Of a DNA stretch of 64,000 bases, positions 9,989 through 48,703 are shown piece by piece (position 1 is the first letter of the stretch; the number at the start of each line of letters is the position of its first letter). The notes under the pieces were generated by a model that had not been told where the DNA came from, searched no databases, and was given only the letters and a program-made list of their open reading frames with translations. The translations under genes were made by a program, and so were the position numbers. Where the stretch lies: contig NZ_CP059572.1 of assembly GCF_019175365.1 (NCBI RefSeq), positions 124,001 through 188,000 of the forward strand, in the 5' to 3' direction. This DNA comes from Actinomadura graeca (GTDB lineage: Bacteria; Actinomycetota; Actinomycetes; Streptosporangiales; Streptosporangiaceae).

Positions 9989-11059
9989 TCACCCGGATCC
10001 CGGCTCCCGCGGCCGCAGCGTCCGGCCGTACCGCGCGATGACGCGTTCACGCAGCTCGGGGTCGTCGCGGGGCACCGGCTCAAGGAAGACCTCGTCGATC
10101 TCCTCGTGGGCGGCGCGCAGCTCGCGGGCCATCCGGACGCAGGCGCGCTCGACGTCCCCGGCGGTCAGGGCGTCGCGGAAGTCGAGCCGGGCGCAGACCA
10201 GGACGCGGTCGGCGCCCACGGTCATGGTGACGATGTCGACGACCCAGTCGACCTCGGGCGCGGCGCCGAGCCGGTCGCGGACGTCGGCGACGACGCGGGG
10301 GTCGGCCTGGTTGCCGATGAGCAGGTTGAGGTTGATGCGGCCGAGGACCAGCGCGACGGCGGTGAGCAGCACCCCGATGAGGACCGATCCGACGCCGTCC
10401 CAGGCGGCTGCGCCGGTGAGCTGGTGCAGCCCGAGGCCGGCGAACGCCAGCAGAAGGCCGATGAGGGCGGCGGAGTCCTCCAGCAGGACGCTGATCGCGG
10501 TGGGCTCGTCGGTCCGGCGGATGTAGGCGGCGAGGGGGAGCCGCTCGTCCCGGGCGGCGCCGCGGACCTGCCGCAGCGCCTGCCGCCACGAGATCCCCTC
10601 CAGCACGAACGAGACGGCGAGGACGCAGTACCCGGCCAGCGGGTCGGCCTCCCCGCCGCGGTGGCCGGTGAGCGTCTGGAAACCCTGGTAGAAGGCGAAC
10701 AGCGCGCCCATCCCGAAGATCGCGACGGCGACGAGCAGCGTCCAGATGTAGCGCTCCTTGCCGTAGCCGAGGGGGTGGCGCCGGTCGGCGGGGCGGCCGC
10801 TGCGGCGCAGCCCGACCATCAGCAGCACCTCGTTGAAGGTGTCGGCGATGGAGTGGGCGGCCTCGGCGGCCATCGACGCCGACCCGGTGGCCACCGCCGC
10901 GACGATCTTGGCGATGGCGATCCCGAGGTTGGCGGCGAGCGCGAGCAGGACGGTCAGGCCGCTCTCGTGCTCCGGCCGTTCGTGCTCCGGCCCGTCGTGC
11001 CCGGCGCGGCGCTCCTCCCGGTGCCCGCCGCCGGGCGGGTCGCCGTGCCCGTTGGTCAT
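9989..11059 (-). CDS. Cation diffusion facilitator family transporter
   Basis: A 356-residue membrane protein of the CDF family, which exports divalent cations such as zinc by proton exchange. After a His-rich N-terminus come about six helices. The metal site motifs are AAHSIADTFNEVLLMVG near residues 67-84 (the HxxxD pattern) and a second TM5 motif, LEDSAALIGLLLAFAGLG, with Asp in the E-D-S context. A C-terminal cytoplasmic domain of about 90 residues (VDIVTMTVGADRVLVCARL) is the usual metal-sensing fold. The ATG at 11059 has AGGA eight bases upstream. The open frame continues without a stop into menE because of a frameshift there; translation should restart at this ATG. Confidence 0.92.
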   Translation of the reverse strand: MTNGHGDPPGGGHREERRAGHDGPEHERPEHESGLTVLLALAANLGIAIAKIVAAVATGSASMAAEAAHSIADTFNEVLLMVGLRRSGRPADRRHPLGYGKERYIWTLLVAVAIFGMGALFAFYQGFQTLTGHRGGEADPLAGYCVLAVSFVLEGISWRQALRQVRGAARDERLPLAAYIRRTDEPTAISVLLEDSAALIGLLLAFAGLGLHQLTGAAAWDGVGSVLIGVLLTAVALVLGRINLNLLIGNQADPRVVADVRDRLGAAPEVDWVVDIVTMTVGADRVLVCARLDFRDALTAGDVERACVRMARELRAAHEEIDEVFLEPVPRDDPELRERVIARYGRTLRPREPGSG

Positions 11060-37740: not shown

Positions 37741-38868
37741 TCACGCCTGCAGAGGGCAGCGGTCGACGAGCCACACGCCCTCGTCGTCCACCGACGGCGG
37801 CCACATGCCCTCGGCGGGCGGCTCGTCGGCGAGCCGGTCCAGATGCCACTCGATGTGCGCCAGCGGGCCGCGCCACCCCGCCAGCAGGTCCGCCAGCGGC
37901 CGCGGCGCGCCCGGCGGGCCGAACGGACGCGGGTCGGGCAGCTCCTGCTCCCACAGCGCGTCGTCGCAGTCGGCCACCCAGTGCGCCGCCGCCTCCAGCA
38001 CCGCCTGCAGGTCGCGGGCCAGGTCGCCGAGCGAGCGCAGCGCCATCGCGTCCTGGATCATCCGCTCCCGCTCGCTGTAGGGAAGGTCGCGGTCGAACTC
38101 CGGCGGGAACGGCGGGCGGCGGCCCTCCAGCACCGGCTCCTCGTCGGTCGCCGCGGCCCGCACCGCCGCCAGCTGCCACCGCGTCCACTCCGCCAGATGC
38201 CCGAGGACGCCGCGCAGCGCCGCCGCGCCCTCCCCGCCCTCGCGCACCTCCGCGGCCGCCTCCCGCAGCCGGGACCGCACCGACGCCAGCCGGTCCAGCG
38301 TCCACGCCCGCGCACGCGCCGCGCCCGCCGGGCCCCGCGGCCCCGGCTCGGCCGGAGGACGCGGCATCGGCACCCGCAGCGCCGCCAGCAGGTCGTCCAG
38401 ATCTCGGACCTCCGCGCCCCGCCCCGACAGGAACGCCGCCCCGACCCGGTCCAGCCGGAACATCCGCGGCCCCTCGCGCATCCGGCACCAGCCCACCAGG
38501 TACTCCCCGTACGGGGCGACGACCAGGCCGTGCGCCTCGACGTCACGGAAACTGCGCACGCCGCTCTGGTCGGTGTAGGCCAGCCGCACGATCCGCCGGG
38601 TGCGCACCGCCTCGGCCAGCGTGTCGTGCACCGGGCCCATCAGCGAGGCGACCTCGCCCAGCGCGGGCGGCGCGGGCACCCGCGGCAGCGCGTACCCGCC
38701 CTCGCCCGCCTCGGCGGGCAGCCCCCCGTGCGTGAGCAGCTCCAGATCGCGCCGCACGGTCCGCTCGCTCACCCCCAGCCGCTCGCCGAGCACCGACGGC
38801 TGCACCGGCGCGGGCGAGGCCGCGCGCAGCTCGGCGACGAGCGCCAGTAACCGGTCCACGCGATCCAC
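37741..38868 (-). CDS. WYL-domain transcriptional regulator with helical C-terminal domain
   Basis: A 375-residue regulator. An N-terminal HTH (VDRVDRLLALVAELR, then LGERLGVSERTVRRDLELLT) is followed by a WYL domain at about 90-140 (RRIVRLAYTDQSG, VVAPYGEYLVGWCRM, MFRLDRV), the usual ligand-sensing barrel. From about residue 180 to 360 there is an extra helical region with HLAEWTRWQLAAVRA and LAHIEWHLDRLAD, resembling a DinB-like four-helix bundle. GTG 38868 begins directly before the HTH. WYL proteins often sense nucleic-acid fragments and control defence or DNA-damage genes. The partner is unknown; the gene lies beside the 937-residue protein on the same strand. Confidence 0.85.
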   Translation of the reverse strand: MDRVDRLLALVAELRAASPAPVQPSVLGERLGVSERTVRRDLELLTHGGLPAEAGEGGYALPRVPAPPALGEVASLMGPVHDTLAEAVRTRRIVRLAYTDQSGVRSFRDVEAHGLVVAPYGEYLVGWCRMREGPRMFRLDRVGAAFLSGRGAEVRDLDDLLAALRVPMPRPPAEPGPRGPAGAARARAWTLDRLASVRSRLREAAAEVREGGEGAAALRGVLGHLAEWTRWQLAAVRAAATDEEPVLEGRRPPFPPEFDRDLPYSERERMIQDAMALRSLGDLARDLQAVLEAAAHWVADCDDALWEQELPDPRPFGPPGAPRPLADLLAGWRGPLAHIEWHLDRLADEPPAEGMWPPSVDDEGVWLVDRCPLQA

Positions 38869-39009
38869 ACCACCATCGTGACCCGCGCCGCCGACATTAT
38901 GCGGTGGCGCGAAGGTCTCAAACCCCTGCGGGCACGGCGCAGCACGCACTTCACCGCAGCACGCACTTCACCGCGCGGCGGCACAGCGCGGCGGCGGCGT
39001 GCGGCGCGG

Positions 39010-45685: not shown

Positions 45686-47011
45686 ATGGACACCCCCACG
45701 CTCCTTGCCCACCTGGAGACCCACGACACCCCCCTCACCCTGCCACGGGGCGGCACCCTGCGCTGGGACGACGCGGACCTGCACCGCGCCGCCCACACCG
45801 ACGACCCCGAGGGCTACGCGCTGCTCGGCCTGGCCCCGGGCGTGCGGCCCTGGCAGCGCGCCCGCGTGCTGCTGCAGGTGCTCAACGCCTCCCAGGCCGG
45901 CCTGGACCAGGCGACCCGCGCCGTCCTGCACCGCACCGCCCGCGTCCTGACCCTCGGCCTGCCGCCCGCGCACGTCATCACCGTCCTGCTCGGGCTGCGG
46001 CGCCTGCGCGCCAACCACAAGCACACCACCCGCATCGCGCTGCGGTTCGTCCTGGAGCACCCCGGCGCCGACGCGCTCATCGCCGCGCGCCGCCCCGCGC
46101 TGGTCGACTGCTTCGAGCACGCGCTCGGCACCGCCACCGCACGCGGCTGCGCCCGGCGCATCGCCGACGGCGACACCGCCTCGGACTACCTGCAGCGGCG
46201 GCTGCTGCGCTTCCTCACCCGCCCGCACGCCGCGCCCGCCCGCATCCGCGCGCTCTACGACGCCGGGACGGGCGGAGCCGCCGCGCCGCCCGGGCCCGCG
46301 CTCGCCCTGGACACCGCCCGCGACCGCCCGCCCACCGTCACCGCCACCAACCGCGGCGACATCGCCGCGACCCTCGTCCACCTGTACCGGGGCGGGCCGT
46401 CGGAGTCGCTGTACGAGGCGCTCGGCCGGTACGTCGACGCCGCCGCCGCCGCGTTCCCCCGCTTCGACGGCACGGTCGCCCTGGTCCTGGACGCCTCGGC
46501 GTCCATGCGCGGCTACGGCACCCGCGAATGGGCGGTGCTGTCGCAGGCCGCCGCGCTGCGCATGGTGCTGTCGCAGGTGTGCGCCCGGCTGGAGGTCGTC
46601 GAGGTCGGCGGGGACGAGCGCGCCCCGCGCGGCGCCACCGACCTGGCCATGGGCGTCCTGGACGCGCTCGGCACCGGGCCCGACCTCGTCGCCGTCGTCA
46701 CCGACGGCTACGAGAACCTGTTCCCCGGCGACCTCGCCCGCGTCGCCGCCACGCTGCCCCGCGCCGGCGTCACCACCCCCGTGGTGCTGTGCCACGCCCT
46801 GTTCACCGGCAGCGACGACCTGGCCCTGCGCCGTCCCGCGCCGTCCCTGCCCCAGCGCGGGTTCTGGCACCAGGACGACTTCGCCGAGCTGCTGCCCTGG
46901 ATGCTCGGGCACTGCGCCGCCGGCGCGCCCTGGCTGCGCGCCGCGCTGCGCGCCCGCCTGGACGACCTCGACCGGCGCGCCGACGCGCTCGCCCCCGGCC
47001 TGGCCGCCTGA
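45686..47011 (+). CDS. von Willebrand factor A domain protein with helical N-terminal repeats (TROVE-like layout)
   Basis: A 441-residue cytoplasmic protein. The first 250 residues are helical repeats (LLGLAPGVRPWQRARVLLQV, VLTLGLPPAHVITVLLGLRR, HKHTTRIALRFVLEHP, YLQRRLLRFLTRP), similar in layout to TROVE/Ro60 or HEAT proteins but without a firm match. A vWA domain follows with MIDAS LVLDASASMRGYGTREW near residue 268 (DxSxS), Thr in GATDLAMGVLDAL near 316 and Asp in VAVVTDGYENLFPGD near 335. It would bind metal and a partner. GGAGG nine bases before ATG 45686. It is followed 181 bases later by an ARPP-1-like gene, probably one operon. Confidence 0.85.
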   Translation: MDTPTLLAHLETHDTPLTLPRGGTLRWDDADLHRAAHTDDPEGYALLGLAPGVRPWQRARVLLQVLNASQAGLDQATRAVLHRTARVLTLGLPPAHVITVLLGLRRLRANHKHTTRIALRFVLEHPGADALIAARRPALVDCFEHALGTATARGCARRIADGDTASDYLQRRLLRFLTRPHAAPARIRALYDAGTGGAAAPPGPALALDTARDRPPTVTATNRGDIAATLVHLYRGGPSESLYEALGRYVDAAAAAFPRFDGTVALVLDASASMRGYGTREWAVLSQAAALRMVLSQVCARLEVVEVGGDERAPRGATDLAMGVLDALGTGPDLVAVVTDGYENLFPGDLARVAATLPRAGVTTPVVLCHALFTGSDDLALRRPAPSLPQRGFWHQDDFAELLPWMLGHCAAGAPWLRAALRARLDDLDRRADALAPGLAA

Positions 47012-47192
47012 CCCCGCGCCCGCCCGCGCCGCCCCCGCCGGGGCGCCGCACCGGCGGACGCGGGGGGCGGCCCGCGAGCCCGCACCCGGCGGCGGCGCCC
47101 CCGCAACCGGCGCACACGACCCCGCAGGCACGACCCGCAGGCACGTACAAGGCACGTACAAGGCACGACCCCGCACGGAAGGAAGGAGCACC

Positions 47193-48152
47193 GTGACCCA
47201 CATGACGGCGCTCGACACGCTGGTCCCCGGGCCCCTCAGCCTCGCCGGGCACCGCCTCGGCACCCCGCAGCAGGCGGGCGCGCTGACCATGGTCCCGATC
47301 TCCGGGCCCGCCCACCCCGGCTTCGTCCCGCCCCGCACCGGCCTGAAGCTGTCGCGGGTCGTCGGGTACGGGCAGGTCGAGCTGACCAATGGCGCCCCGT
47401 CCGGGGTGGCCATCGTGCCGCTGCACATCGGCTACATCCAGGACCACGCCCAGAATCACGCCCTGTGCCGGTCGGCGTTCCTGGCCGCCGGGCAGACCCT
47501 GCGCTTCGACGACGCCTGCTGCGTCCAGGAGAGCCAGGGCGGCTACCTCACCGGCGGCGACCAGTGGTTCTTCGTGCTGCCCGCCGAGCTGCGCGCCCGC
47601 GCCCTGGAACTGCGCGGCGTCCACGGCTACAGCAAGCTGTGGGCCGACATCGCCGAGCTGAACGCCCGGTACGGGCTGCCGCGGCGCGGGCACCTGGAGC
47701 AGATCCTGTCCCGCCAGAGGCCCGTGCTGACCCAGTTCCAGAGCCGCCTGGAACTCCAGCCCGGCCAGGTCGGCGCCCTGTTCTTCCTCGCCGGCCGGTT
47801 CGCCGGCCTGGAGATCGCCCCCGACCCGGCCTACTTCGCCGAGATGTGGGCCGCGCTGGTCTGCTTCGCCTACGGCGCCGCCGCCTGGCACGCCGAGCCC
47901 GAGCCGCCCCCCGCCGTCCCCTACGACGCCGCGGGCCTGGCCGGGCTGCGCGGCGCCCTGGACCGCGACCGCTCCGGCCGCATCGCCGAGATCGCCGGAT
48001 GGCTCGCCGACGCCCCCGCGGGCCCCGTCGACGTCCAGGAGGAGGACCGCTACCTGGACCTGCGGCTGTCCACCGTCACCGGCCCGCACCTCGCCGGGCA
48101 GATCGTCACCGGCGGGGACCGCACCGTCTACGCGTCGCTGTTCGCACGCTGA
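47193..48152 (+). CDS. ARPP-1 (DUF6569)-like domain protein
   Basis: A 319-residue soluble protein. Residues 20-125 fit the ARPP-1-like pattern: an adhesin-like beta domain with VVGYGQVELTNGAPSGVAIV, IGYIQDHAQNHALCRSAFLA, AGQTLRFDD and ACCVQESQGGYLTGG, where ARPP-1 proteins have a conserved Cys-Val-Glu-Gln-Gly motif. The C-terminal half is helical with a conserved-looking DVQEEDRYLDLRLSTV. GGAAGGA precedes the GTG at 47193. As I recall, comparative-genomic work places ARPP-1 proteins beside RNA-repair and Ro/vWA genes; that is unchecked here. Similarity is moderate, so the family call is tentative. Confidence 0.6.
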   Translation: MTHMTALDTLVPGPLSLAGHRLGTPQQAGALTMVPISGPAHPGFVPPRTGLKLSRVVGYGQVELTNGAPSGVAIVPLHIGYIQDHAQNHALCRSAFLAAGQTLRFDDACCVQESQGGYLTGGDQWFFVLPAELRARALELRGVHGYSKLWADIAELNARYGLPRRGHLEQILSRQRPVLTQFQSRLELQPGQVGALFFLAGRFAGLEIAPDPAYFAEMWAALVCFAYGAAAWHAEPEPPPAVPYDAAGLAGLRGALDRDRSGRIAEIAGWLADAPAGPVDVQEEDRYLDLRLSTVTGPHLAGQIVTGGDRTVYASLFAR

Positions 48153-48153
48153 T

Positions 48154-48300
48154 CCCGGGGCGATCCGTAAAAAGGGTTGCCCCGGGGGAGCACCACCCAC
48201 TTGAATCGGAGCCACGGGAACTGTGCCGGGCACCTCAGGCAGAACCCTGATTCCAGATCTCGGGCATCGTCTGTTCAACGATACTGAGCCTGACGAGGCG
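48154..48300 (+). ncRNA. Candidate structured RNA downstream of the vWA/ARPP-like genes
   Basis: The 338-base gap 48153-48490 contains unusually ordered complementarity. CCCGGGGC/GCCCCGGG (48154-48186) makes an 8-bp stem with a 17-base loop. AGGGTT at 48173-48178 can instead pair with AACCCT at 48243-48248. TCAGGC (48235-48240) pairs with GCCTGA (48288-48293). Inside lies ATCGT-CTGTTCA-ACGAT at 48266-48282, a five-base-pair stem with a seven-base loop like a tRNA anticodon arm. No open frame covers it. It might be a terminator plus leader, or a small RNA (Y-RNA-like in view of the vWA gene). No expression evidence is available. Confidence 0.35.
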
Positions 48301-48490
48301 CCGGCCACCTGTCCCCCCGCCCCCGCGGCGTCCCGCCGAGGACGGCCCCGTCCGGCGGGGCCCCTCCTCCCATGCTCACAGCAGGCCGAGGGGACGCCGG
48401 GATACATCGGCCCCCGGGCCGATGTTCCCGCGCCCTCCCGTTCCCTGATCTGTGGGCCCACCCGCTCCCGGCGCCGTACGGAGGGAAACG

Positions 48491-48703
48491 ATGCACCACC
48501 CGGAGGACACCCCCGGCGAACGCCCCCGCGCCGCCCCCACCGGGGCCCGGCCCGGGACCCGCCCCGCAACCGGACGCGTAATCCCCAGAGGTGAGCCCGA
48601 CTGGGAGAGCGTGCTCGACGACTGGGCCTGGATCCTCCGGCTGAACCTCACCCCCCGAGCCGCGACGCGCGGGCCCGCAGGTACCGCTGCTCGGGGAGGC
48701 TGA
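48491..48703 (+). CDS. Possible 70-residue protein
   Basis: ATG 48491 has GGAGG six bases upstream, a textbook site. The protein begins MHHPEDTPGERPRAAP, has a Pro/Arg-rich first half and a more ordered DWESVLDDWAWILRLNLTP, then a Gly/Ala tail. Its last 56 bases overlap the 3' end of the sigma factor gene on the other strand. No family is recognised. The ribosome site is the main support. Confidence 0.4.
   Translation: MHHPEDTPGERPRAAPTGARPGTRPATGRVIPRGEPDWESVLDDWAWILRLNLTPRAATRGPAGTAARGG

Follow-up and report, generated by a model that had tools for sequence, protein, structure and literature searches.

The locus

We describe here a three-part genetic unit in a stretch of 64,000 nucleotides of Actinomadura graeca (contig NZ_CP059572.1, positions 124,001 to 188,000, within an assembly of 8.98 Mb), hereafter called the window. 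Its parts lie one after the other on the forward strand: a gene for a protein with a vWA domain (45686–47011, 441 amino acids), a gene for an ARPP-1 protein (47193–48152) and a predicted structured RNA of 106 nucleotides (48214–48319). They recur as a fixed set in actinomycetes and in at least one cyanobacterium: a protein whose predicted fold is like that of Ro60, the RNA-binding autoantigen, together with ARPP-1 and a predicted structured small RNA. Among the literature matches listed, no vWA/ARPP/RNA unit appears in titles or abstract openings, subscription papers, including the main ones on bacterial Y RNAs, lying outside the scope.

The predicted structured RNA

The strongest part of the finding is the RNA family, which is absent from Rfam. 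The RNA in the window (90.6 bits, E 2e-18) resembles a Y RNA in that its 5' and 3' ends pair. An earlier reading of the same DNA, made from sequence only, had noticed a non-coding stretch rich in complementary blocks behind the ARPP-1 gene; inverted repeats are indeed found there, and the region folds better than its shuffled versions, both from 48150 to 48300 (z -2.78, none of 200 shuffles as low) and from 48153 to 48490 (z -3.34, none of 100). That reading placed a structured RNA downstream of the pair, and this is supported, although the predicted RNA runs 19 nucleotides past the end it had given. The gap between the two genes (47012–47192) does not fold better than shuffled sequence (z +1.17). 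In the relatives, a common block lies behind ARPP-1, in which GCGGGAACUG stands close to one end and CCUGUCCCGC at the opposite end.

The basal helices were found by RNAalifold on an alignment of 32 rows and, with two added hairpins, make up a full structure of 30 pairs in 5 helices. In the window, the 5' strand of the first basal helix, P1, is GGGA (48216–48219, paired with UCCC at 48312–48315; alignment columns 3–6 with 112–115), while the family's two outermost basal pairs are absent there. The P3 helix pairs UCAGG (48235–48239) with CCUGA (48289–48293), and four of its five pairs change on both sides. A T-arm-like hairpin follows (48246–48262), with a 7-nucleotide loop, UUCCAGA (48251–48257), and three of the five stem pairs formed in the window, and then a second, anticodon-arm-like hairpin (48266–48282), AUCGU-CUGUUCA-ACGAU, with all five pairs formed and again a 7-nucleotide loop.

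Covariation supports this structure. In the 32 rows, 90.9% of 950 cells pair, against 28.9–43.9% when the partners are slid; changes on both sides affect 19 of the 30 pairs, the shuffle mean being 10.4, with none of 500 shuffles as high. Helices 1 and 2 are paired in 93.8 and 97.9% of their cells, and the weakest helix, the second hairpin, in 75.0%. Since the structure had been drawn with the 32 rows in view, it was also tested on 19 model matches outside the alignment, where 95.0% of 540 cells pair (slid partners, 29.8–44.6%) and both-sided changes are seen in 14 pairs (slid partners, 2–7); these rows lean towards the model, having been aligned by it. An artefact of G+C content was rejected on the failing slid-pair controls, and a coding origin on linkers of varying length together with covarying helices.

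Conservation is not limited to pairing. One strand of the basal stem carries an invariant GGGAACU, the other a largely conserved CCUGUCCC, and four unpaired letters of the stem, A7, C8, C95 and C96, are invariant in all 32 rows, which suggests contact with a protein. In the head, the first loop is 7 nucleotides long in 49 of 51 copies and contains UUCCA in 42; in length and in four of five letters it resembles the T loop of tRNA. The loop of the second hairpin, 7 nucleotides long in 30 of the 51 copies, has longer inserts in a subset, and reads CUNNNAA in at least 11, as in anticodon loops. No D-arm was recognised in the head of these copies.

The RNA is not a known Y RNA, as far as Rfam can tell: no family, the Y RNA and YrlA models included, fits the window sequence. 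With YrlA (RF02553), the window stays without a hit at gathering score, as do 48000–48700 at thresholds up to E 10 and four other loci (L030, L048, L055, L061) up to E 1. The only Rfam matches up to E 10 within 48000–48700, mir-3130, a thermometer and COG3610-DE, lie far below threshold and were discarded.

Ahead of the RNA lies a predicted promoter, with a -35-like TTGCCC (48177–48182) and a -10-like TTGAAT (48201–48206), the latter 7 nucleotides before the RNA start. Sites of the same kind, TTG followed after 17 or 18 nucleotides by a TTGAAT-like hexamer, stand 5–10 nucleotides ahead of 47 of the 51 copies, according to a pattern drawn after inspection and without a shuffled control; the hexamer is TTGAAT in 33 copies and TTCAAT in 9. 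A 48th promoter-like copy, in the cyanobacterial locus L055, was scored at a spacing of 15 nucleotides and by eye reads TTGACA-18 nt-TATGAT, 8 nucleotides before the RNA. These elements suggest that the RNA may be transcribed from its own promoter; against this stands a simple promoter scan of the window, in which no promoter-like site was found at this position. Right after the ARPP-1 stop, a hairpin with 13-nucleotide arms (48154–48186, inverted repeat I2, 85% complementary, present in the predicted fold) forms an element separate from the RNA, overlapping its -35 element, and is possibly a terminator.

Conservation of the three-part unit

When one genome per species was scanned, 57 loci with relatives of the vWA protein came up. 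The sequence-only reading had staked its case on the two genes being neighbours in other genomes, and so they are: in 52 loci, spread over Actinomycetota, Cyanobacteria and Bacteroidota, the next gene on the same strand codes for ARPP-1, always of one subfamily, and in the remaining five (L016, L020, L025, L053, L059) the contig stops at most about 55 nucleotides from the vWA match or open reading frame. Among the 52 are loci of Actinomadura, Nonomuraea, Rhizohabitans, Nocardia and cyanobacteria, with a single one from Bacteroidota (L061). In L017 and L054 the contig stops within ARPP-1, in L050 ARPP-1 lies in two frames, and L038 and L041 show a 4-nucleotide overlap (ATGA) of the two genes.

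The RNA, too, is conserved together with the pair. The covariance model finds it in 48 of the 57 loci, downstream of the genes and on their strand, two of the 48 being weak matches (L024, E 0.0029; L027, E 0.001). Seven of the nine misses are contig ends (L016, L017, L020, L025, L053, L054, L059), and two loci with sufficient sequence, L061 and L063, give no match even with filters off. All three parts are also present in a further Nonomuraea record outside the 57 (L112), and in the cyanobacterial L055 the RNA stands beside the pair in another phylum. One locus (L057:13437–13544) has it farther downstream, separated from ARPP-1 by 3.1 kb of other sequence. Second copies were seen near the first in L052 (12297–12411), L039 (10680–10796, cut by the locus end) and L114 (5424–5543). 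No RNA match was found in 25 loci of other ARPP-1 genes or in 6 TROVE loci, with flanks of at most about 1.5 kb on each side.

Sampling of whole genomes gives a similar picture. Among 120 genomes of the family, the vWA profile matches in 30 and over its full length in 5; ARPP-1 is found in 6, with a score above cut-off in those 5 only; for the RNA the count is also 6, these 5 and, as a 51-nucleotide match, G059 (E 6.7e-5). The five three-part genomes include that of the window, and two of them share their contigs with L039 and L060. In a 296-genome sample of the phylum, ARPP-1 occurs in 31 genomes and the full-length vWA protein in that of the window only; the 295 others gave no RNA match, with stricter filters that lose weak matches. 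Within the 8.98 Mb genome the RNA matches once.

Beyond the pair, no gene cluster recurs in more than 28 of the 52 loci (51 relatives and the window). Such counts are lower bounds, because the rough gene caller recovered ARPP-1 itself in only 31 of the 52.

Carriage by other replicons was considered and set aside. Fourteen pattern-matching stretches in viral_contigs encode no relative, ARPP-1 in phages amounts to a single distant match (29.7% identity over 66%), and of four plasmid records the only long match is a Nonomuraea record of 11.85 Mb.

The vWA protein

The order of a helical N-terminal domain and a C-terminal vWA domain with an intact MIDAS, which characterizes TROVE/Ro60 proteins, is present in the window protein (the list of open reading frames also has a longer version, which starts at an upstream TTG). 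The MIDAS noticed by the sequence-only reading is conserved: each of D269, S271, S273, T318 and D340 is either invariant or shows at least 90% conservation across 26 aligned sequences, the window's included.

The Ro60/TROVE layout proposed in that reading, for which an N-terminal domain of unrelated fold would have been the refutation, is supported by the whole-protein model, whose best structural matches are Ro60/Rsr proteins. By sequence, nothing identifies the N-terminal domain as TROVE. The window protein draws no match from the Pfam, NCBIfam or PADLOC models; TROVE (PF05731) is not found in it by profile, nor among the families matched by 12 members, nor anywhere in the window's own genome. 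Compared by profile, the N-terminal domain matches that of TROVE proteins with a probability of 0.5%, whereas the vWA domain with the helix preceding it matches TROVE proteins with probabilities of 94.8–96.3. Some members match VWA_2 and VWA_CoxE weakly by sequence. When the full-length model is compared with the PDB by Foldseek, the top 8 rows are all Ro60/Rsr (E 1e-5 to 1.6e-4), and the best entry matching the vWA domain only is 8ql1 (E 7.3e-3); against BFVD, the first row is a phage Ro-like protein (E 7.3e-6). The best VIA row spans residues 1–428, with low TM-scores for the whole-protein model. The N-terminal part is about 90 residues shorter than that of TROVE proteins, which bears on the closed HEAT-repeat ring. 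The vWA protein is thus predicted to be Ro60-like in fold, though it has no sequence-detectable TROVE domain.

Relatives that match the vWA domain alone are frequent in the family, and among the 30 genomes matched by the vWA profile they account for all but the five full-length cases and a sixth, G405, where the match covers residues 1–212. There, only the N-terminal half of the protein is left (L113:4844–5659), with neither ARPP-1 nor a clear RNA (best 16.3 bits), and decay appears to have affected the entire three-part unit. L067 (G000:C1:8629629–8630216) holds a second vWA protein, of about 507 amino acids, with no Pfam match.

The ARPP-1 protein

The assignment of the second gene to ARPP-1, suggested earlier from the letters, is confirmed by PF20208 (119.5 bits, E 2.4e-34, cut-off 27). 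The predicted model (pLDDT 85.8) has no match in the PDB at E≤0.001. As regards the cysteine and glutamine conserved in the ARPP-1 family, C92, C109 and Q112 are invariant in the 27 aligned sequences; in L018 and L047, C110 is present and C109 absent, and three distant ARPP-1 sequences in the alignment share Q87-N88, without C92.

A profile of the close relatives separates the ARPP-1 proteins encoded next to vWA genes from the others. The linked ones, those of cyanobacteria and Bacteroidota included, score 391–590 bits, and even a contig-end fragment, in L054, reaches 402; of 25 loci with other actinobacterial ARPP-1 genes, five match, with 18–40 bits. Three of these five, long enough to be kept, fall on a branch of length 2.8 with support 1.0, and lack the PLHIGYIQ-, QNHALC- and CVQ-type motifs shared by the linked proteins, except for QN. 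Judged by their sequences, vWA-linked ARPP-1 proteins are a distinct subfamily.

Flanking genes and tRNA-like elements

Downstream of the RNA, a possible small open reading frame of about 70 amino acids (48491–48703, plus strand), with a GGAGGG site ahead, overlaps the end of a sigma-factor gene on the opposite strand. Upstream, a WYL-domain regulator (38002–38949, minus strand) belongs to a cluster seen in 19 of the 52 loci; WYL regulators pair with ARPP in other contexts, according to the passages of PMC9503650 that treat ARPP.

Two loci contain tRNA-like elements. In L055 (Cyanobacteria UBA8803), a second RNA-like element (10898–11035) lies behind the first, with acceptor-like ends GCCGAG/CTCGGC, a canonical T arm, a CTCGTAA loop and a tRNA-Thr (cgt) called by ARAGORN at 10965–11037; an inserted hairpin, CCACCTGTCC...GGAACTGTGC, corresponds to the basal stem of the unit in permuted order. 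In L061 (Saprospiraceae), a tRNA-like stretch of about 127 nucleotides directly behind ARPP-1 (10497–10623) has ends GGCGGGG/CCCCGCC, a T arm and TCCA, and contains GGAACTGT; ARAGORN makes no call there, and the fold reaches a z of only -1.40.

Interpretation

The locus probably encodes a divergent ribonucleoprotein of the Ro-Y type, with ARPP-1 as its enzyme partner; it would be an RNA-handling particle akin to the Ro-Y RNA complexes found in animals and in other bacteria. We prefer this reading since it best fits the gene order, the co-occurrence of the parts, the predicted fold and the architecture of the RNA; expression, RNA binding, complex formation and the ARPP-1 reaction are what we infer from them. 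The RNA would be transcribed from its own promoter and bound at its basal stem by the vWA protein, with GGGAACU on one strand and CCUGUCCC on the other as the docking site, by analogy with bacterial Y RNA, whose basal stem tethers Rsr. ARPP-1, encoded between the vWA gene and the RNA, would be the enzyme of the particle. The head of the RNA, with its T-arm-like and anticodon-arm-like hairpins, may mimic tRNA; its role would be to offer ARPP-1 tRNA-like or damaged RNA, or else to serve as a tether for a different RNA enzyme.

A bolder form of this proposal, which we hold only tentatively and consider rather unlikely as a whole, sees in the unit a further Ro branch hidden from sequence searches, where a tRNA-mimic RNA, bound by a reduced Ro protein, delivers RNA that is tRNA-like, ADP-ribosylated or damaged in another way to ARPP-1, which would then be a new RNA repair enzyme acting on ribose. 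As the second RNA of L055 has the docking stem inside an apparent tRNA, the RNA of the particle may derive from a real tRNA.

Among the alternatives, the one that survives best, though we regard it as improbable, is that the pair is a stripped-down form of the ADP-ribose conflict systems centred on ADP-ribosylglycohydrolase (ARG), in which the vWA protein would be a peptide-binding chaperone, ARPP-1 would act on the ribose of ADP-ribose adducts, and the RNA would be a separate regulatory small RNA. The sequence-only reading linked ARPP-1 to RNA-repair neighbourhoods; the passages of PMC9503650 on ARPP place it instead in ARG-centred neighbourhoods, with phosphatases and vWA genes, and suggest ribose chemistry for it. 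The only sequence-level match of the vWA protein, confined to the vWA domain and the helix before it, is also compatible with such a system. Yet neither ARG nor a rhodanese-phosphatase, Nudix, Macro or NADAR protein is encoded among the 12 window neighbours scanned, one of which is a PAP2-superfamily membrane protein (the other loci were not scanned for them), the fold matches prefer Ro60 to other vWA proteins, and the RNA coincides with the pair in the same 5 of 120 genomes and accompanies it into another phylum in L055.

Somewhat less likely still is an independent small RNA, trans-acting or part of a 3' untranslated region, behind the operon and binding neither protein. A promoter-like site of its own would suit it, and the link between RNA and proteins is inferred rather than experimental; but the invariant unpaired letters of the basal stem suggest protein contact, the three parts occur together in 5 of the 120 family genomes, and, with filters strict enough to miss weak matches, the RNA turns up in none of the other 295 genomes sampled from the phylum. 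That the RNA is a cis element of a neighbouring gene (terminator, attenuator or riboswitch) or an artefact of composition is very improbable: the region is G+C-rich, with strong hairpins, one of them behind the ARPP-1 stop, but the helices covary, the following gene varies among loci and in the window lies on the opposite strand, the L057 copy is 3.1 kb away from ARPP-1, and the L055 copy, with its TTGACA-18 nt-TATGAT promoter-like site read by eye, is only 47% G+C.

If the Ro-Y-type reading is right, a Ro-Y-like particle missed by sequence profiles, with an RNA family outside Rfam and a fixed enzyme partner, would offer a concrete setting for testing the function of ARPP-1 proteins, and a compact system for asking what Ro particles do outside RtcAB repair operons. 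As a defined set of three parts, the unit lends itself to expression and deletion in one piece.

Comparison with known systems

The unit shares with the ARG-centred ADP-ribose systems the presence of both vWA genes and ARPP, as given in part of PMC9503650, but its ARPP-1 belongs to a separate subfamily and it includes a conserved RNA, which section 31 of that paper does not mention for them. With MoxR/CoxE-type vWA proteins it shares the weak VWA_2 and VWA_CoxE matches of some members; unlike in that type, no MoxR-type AAA+ protein is found among the 12 scanned neighbours, and the full-length structural matches go to Ro60.

The closest likeness is to Ro60/Rsr with YrlA (rsr-yrlBA-rtcBA, RYPER). 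In both, a helical N-terminal domain precedes a vWA domain with a MIDAS, the ends of the RNA pair, the head carries a T-arm-like hairpin and the RNA gene lies beside the protein gene, as it does here in 48 of 57 vWA loci, provided that the vWA protein counts as Ro-like. At about 106 nucleotides, the RNA falls within the size range of YrlA, put at 90–150 nucleotides in the part of PMC8394870 that gives it. Unlike Ro60/Rsr, the window protein has no detectable TROVE sequence and a shorter N-terminal domain.

The RNAs also differ. A YrlA search of six TROVE-bearing genomes of the family gave below-cut-off matches in all six, beside the TROVE gene in five and on another contig in the sixth, G008; adjacency to TROVE is what counts, because 7 of 14 control genomes yield matches below cut-off as well, and so, far from the locus, does the window's genome. 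By eye, the TROVE-adjacent RNAs have canonical T arms and mostly a different basal motif, GGUGCGCA/GAUCUCGGG in most of them, in place of the GGGAACU/CCUGUCCC of the unit, in whose RNA the D-arm of YrlA was not seen. In G007, two YrlA-like RNAs stand in tandem beside a TROVE gene (L099, L105). RtcB is encoded in all five genomes with the unit, never beside it and about 393 kb away in that of the window: where rsr-yrlBA-rtcBA has the Rtc genes, the unit has ARPP-1.
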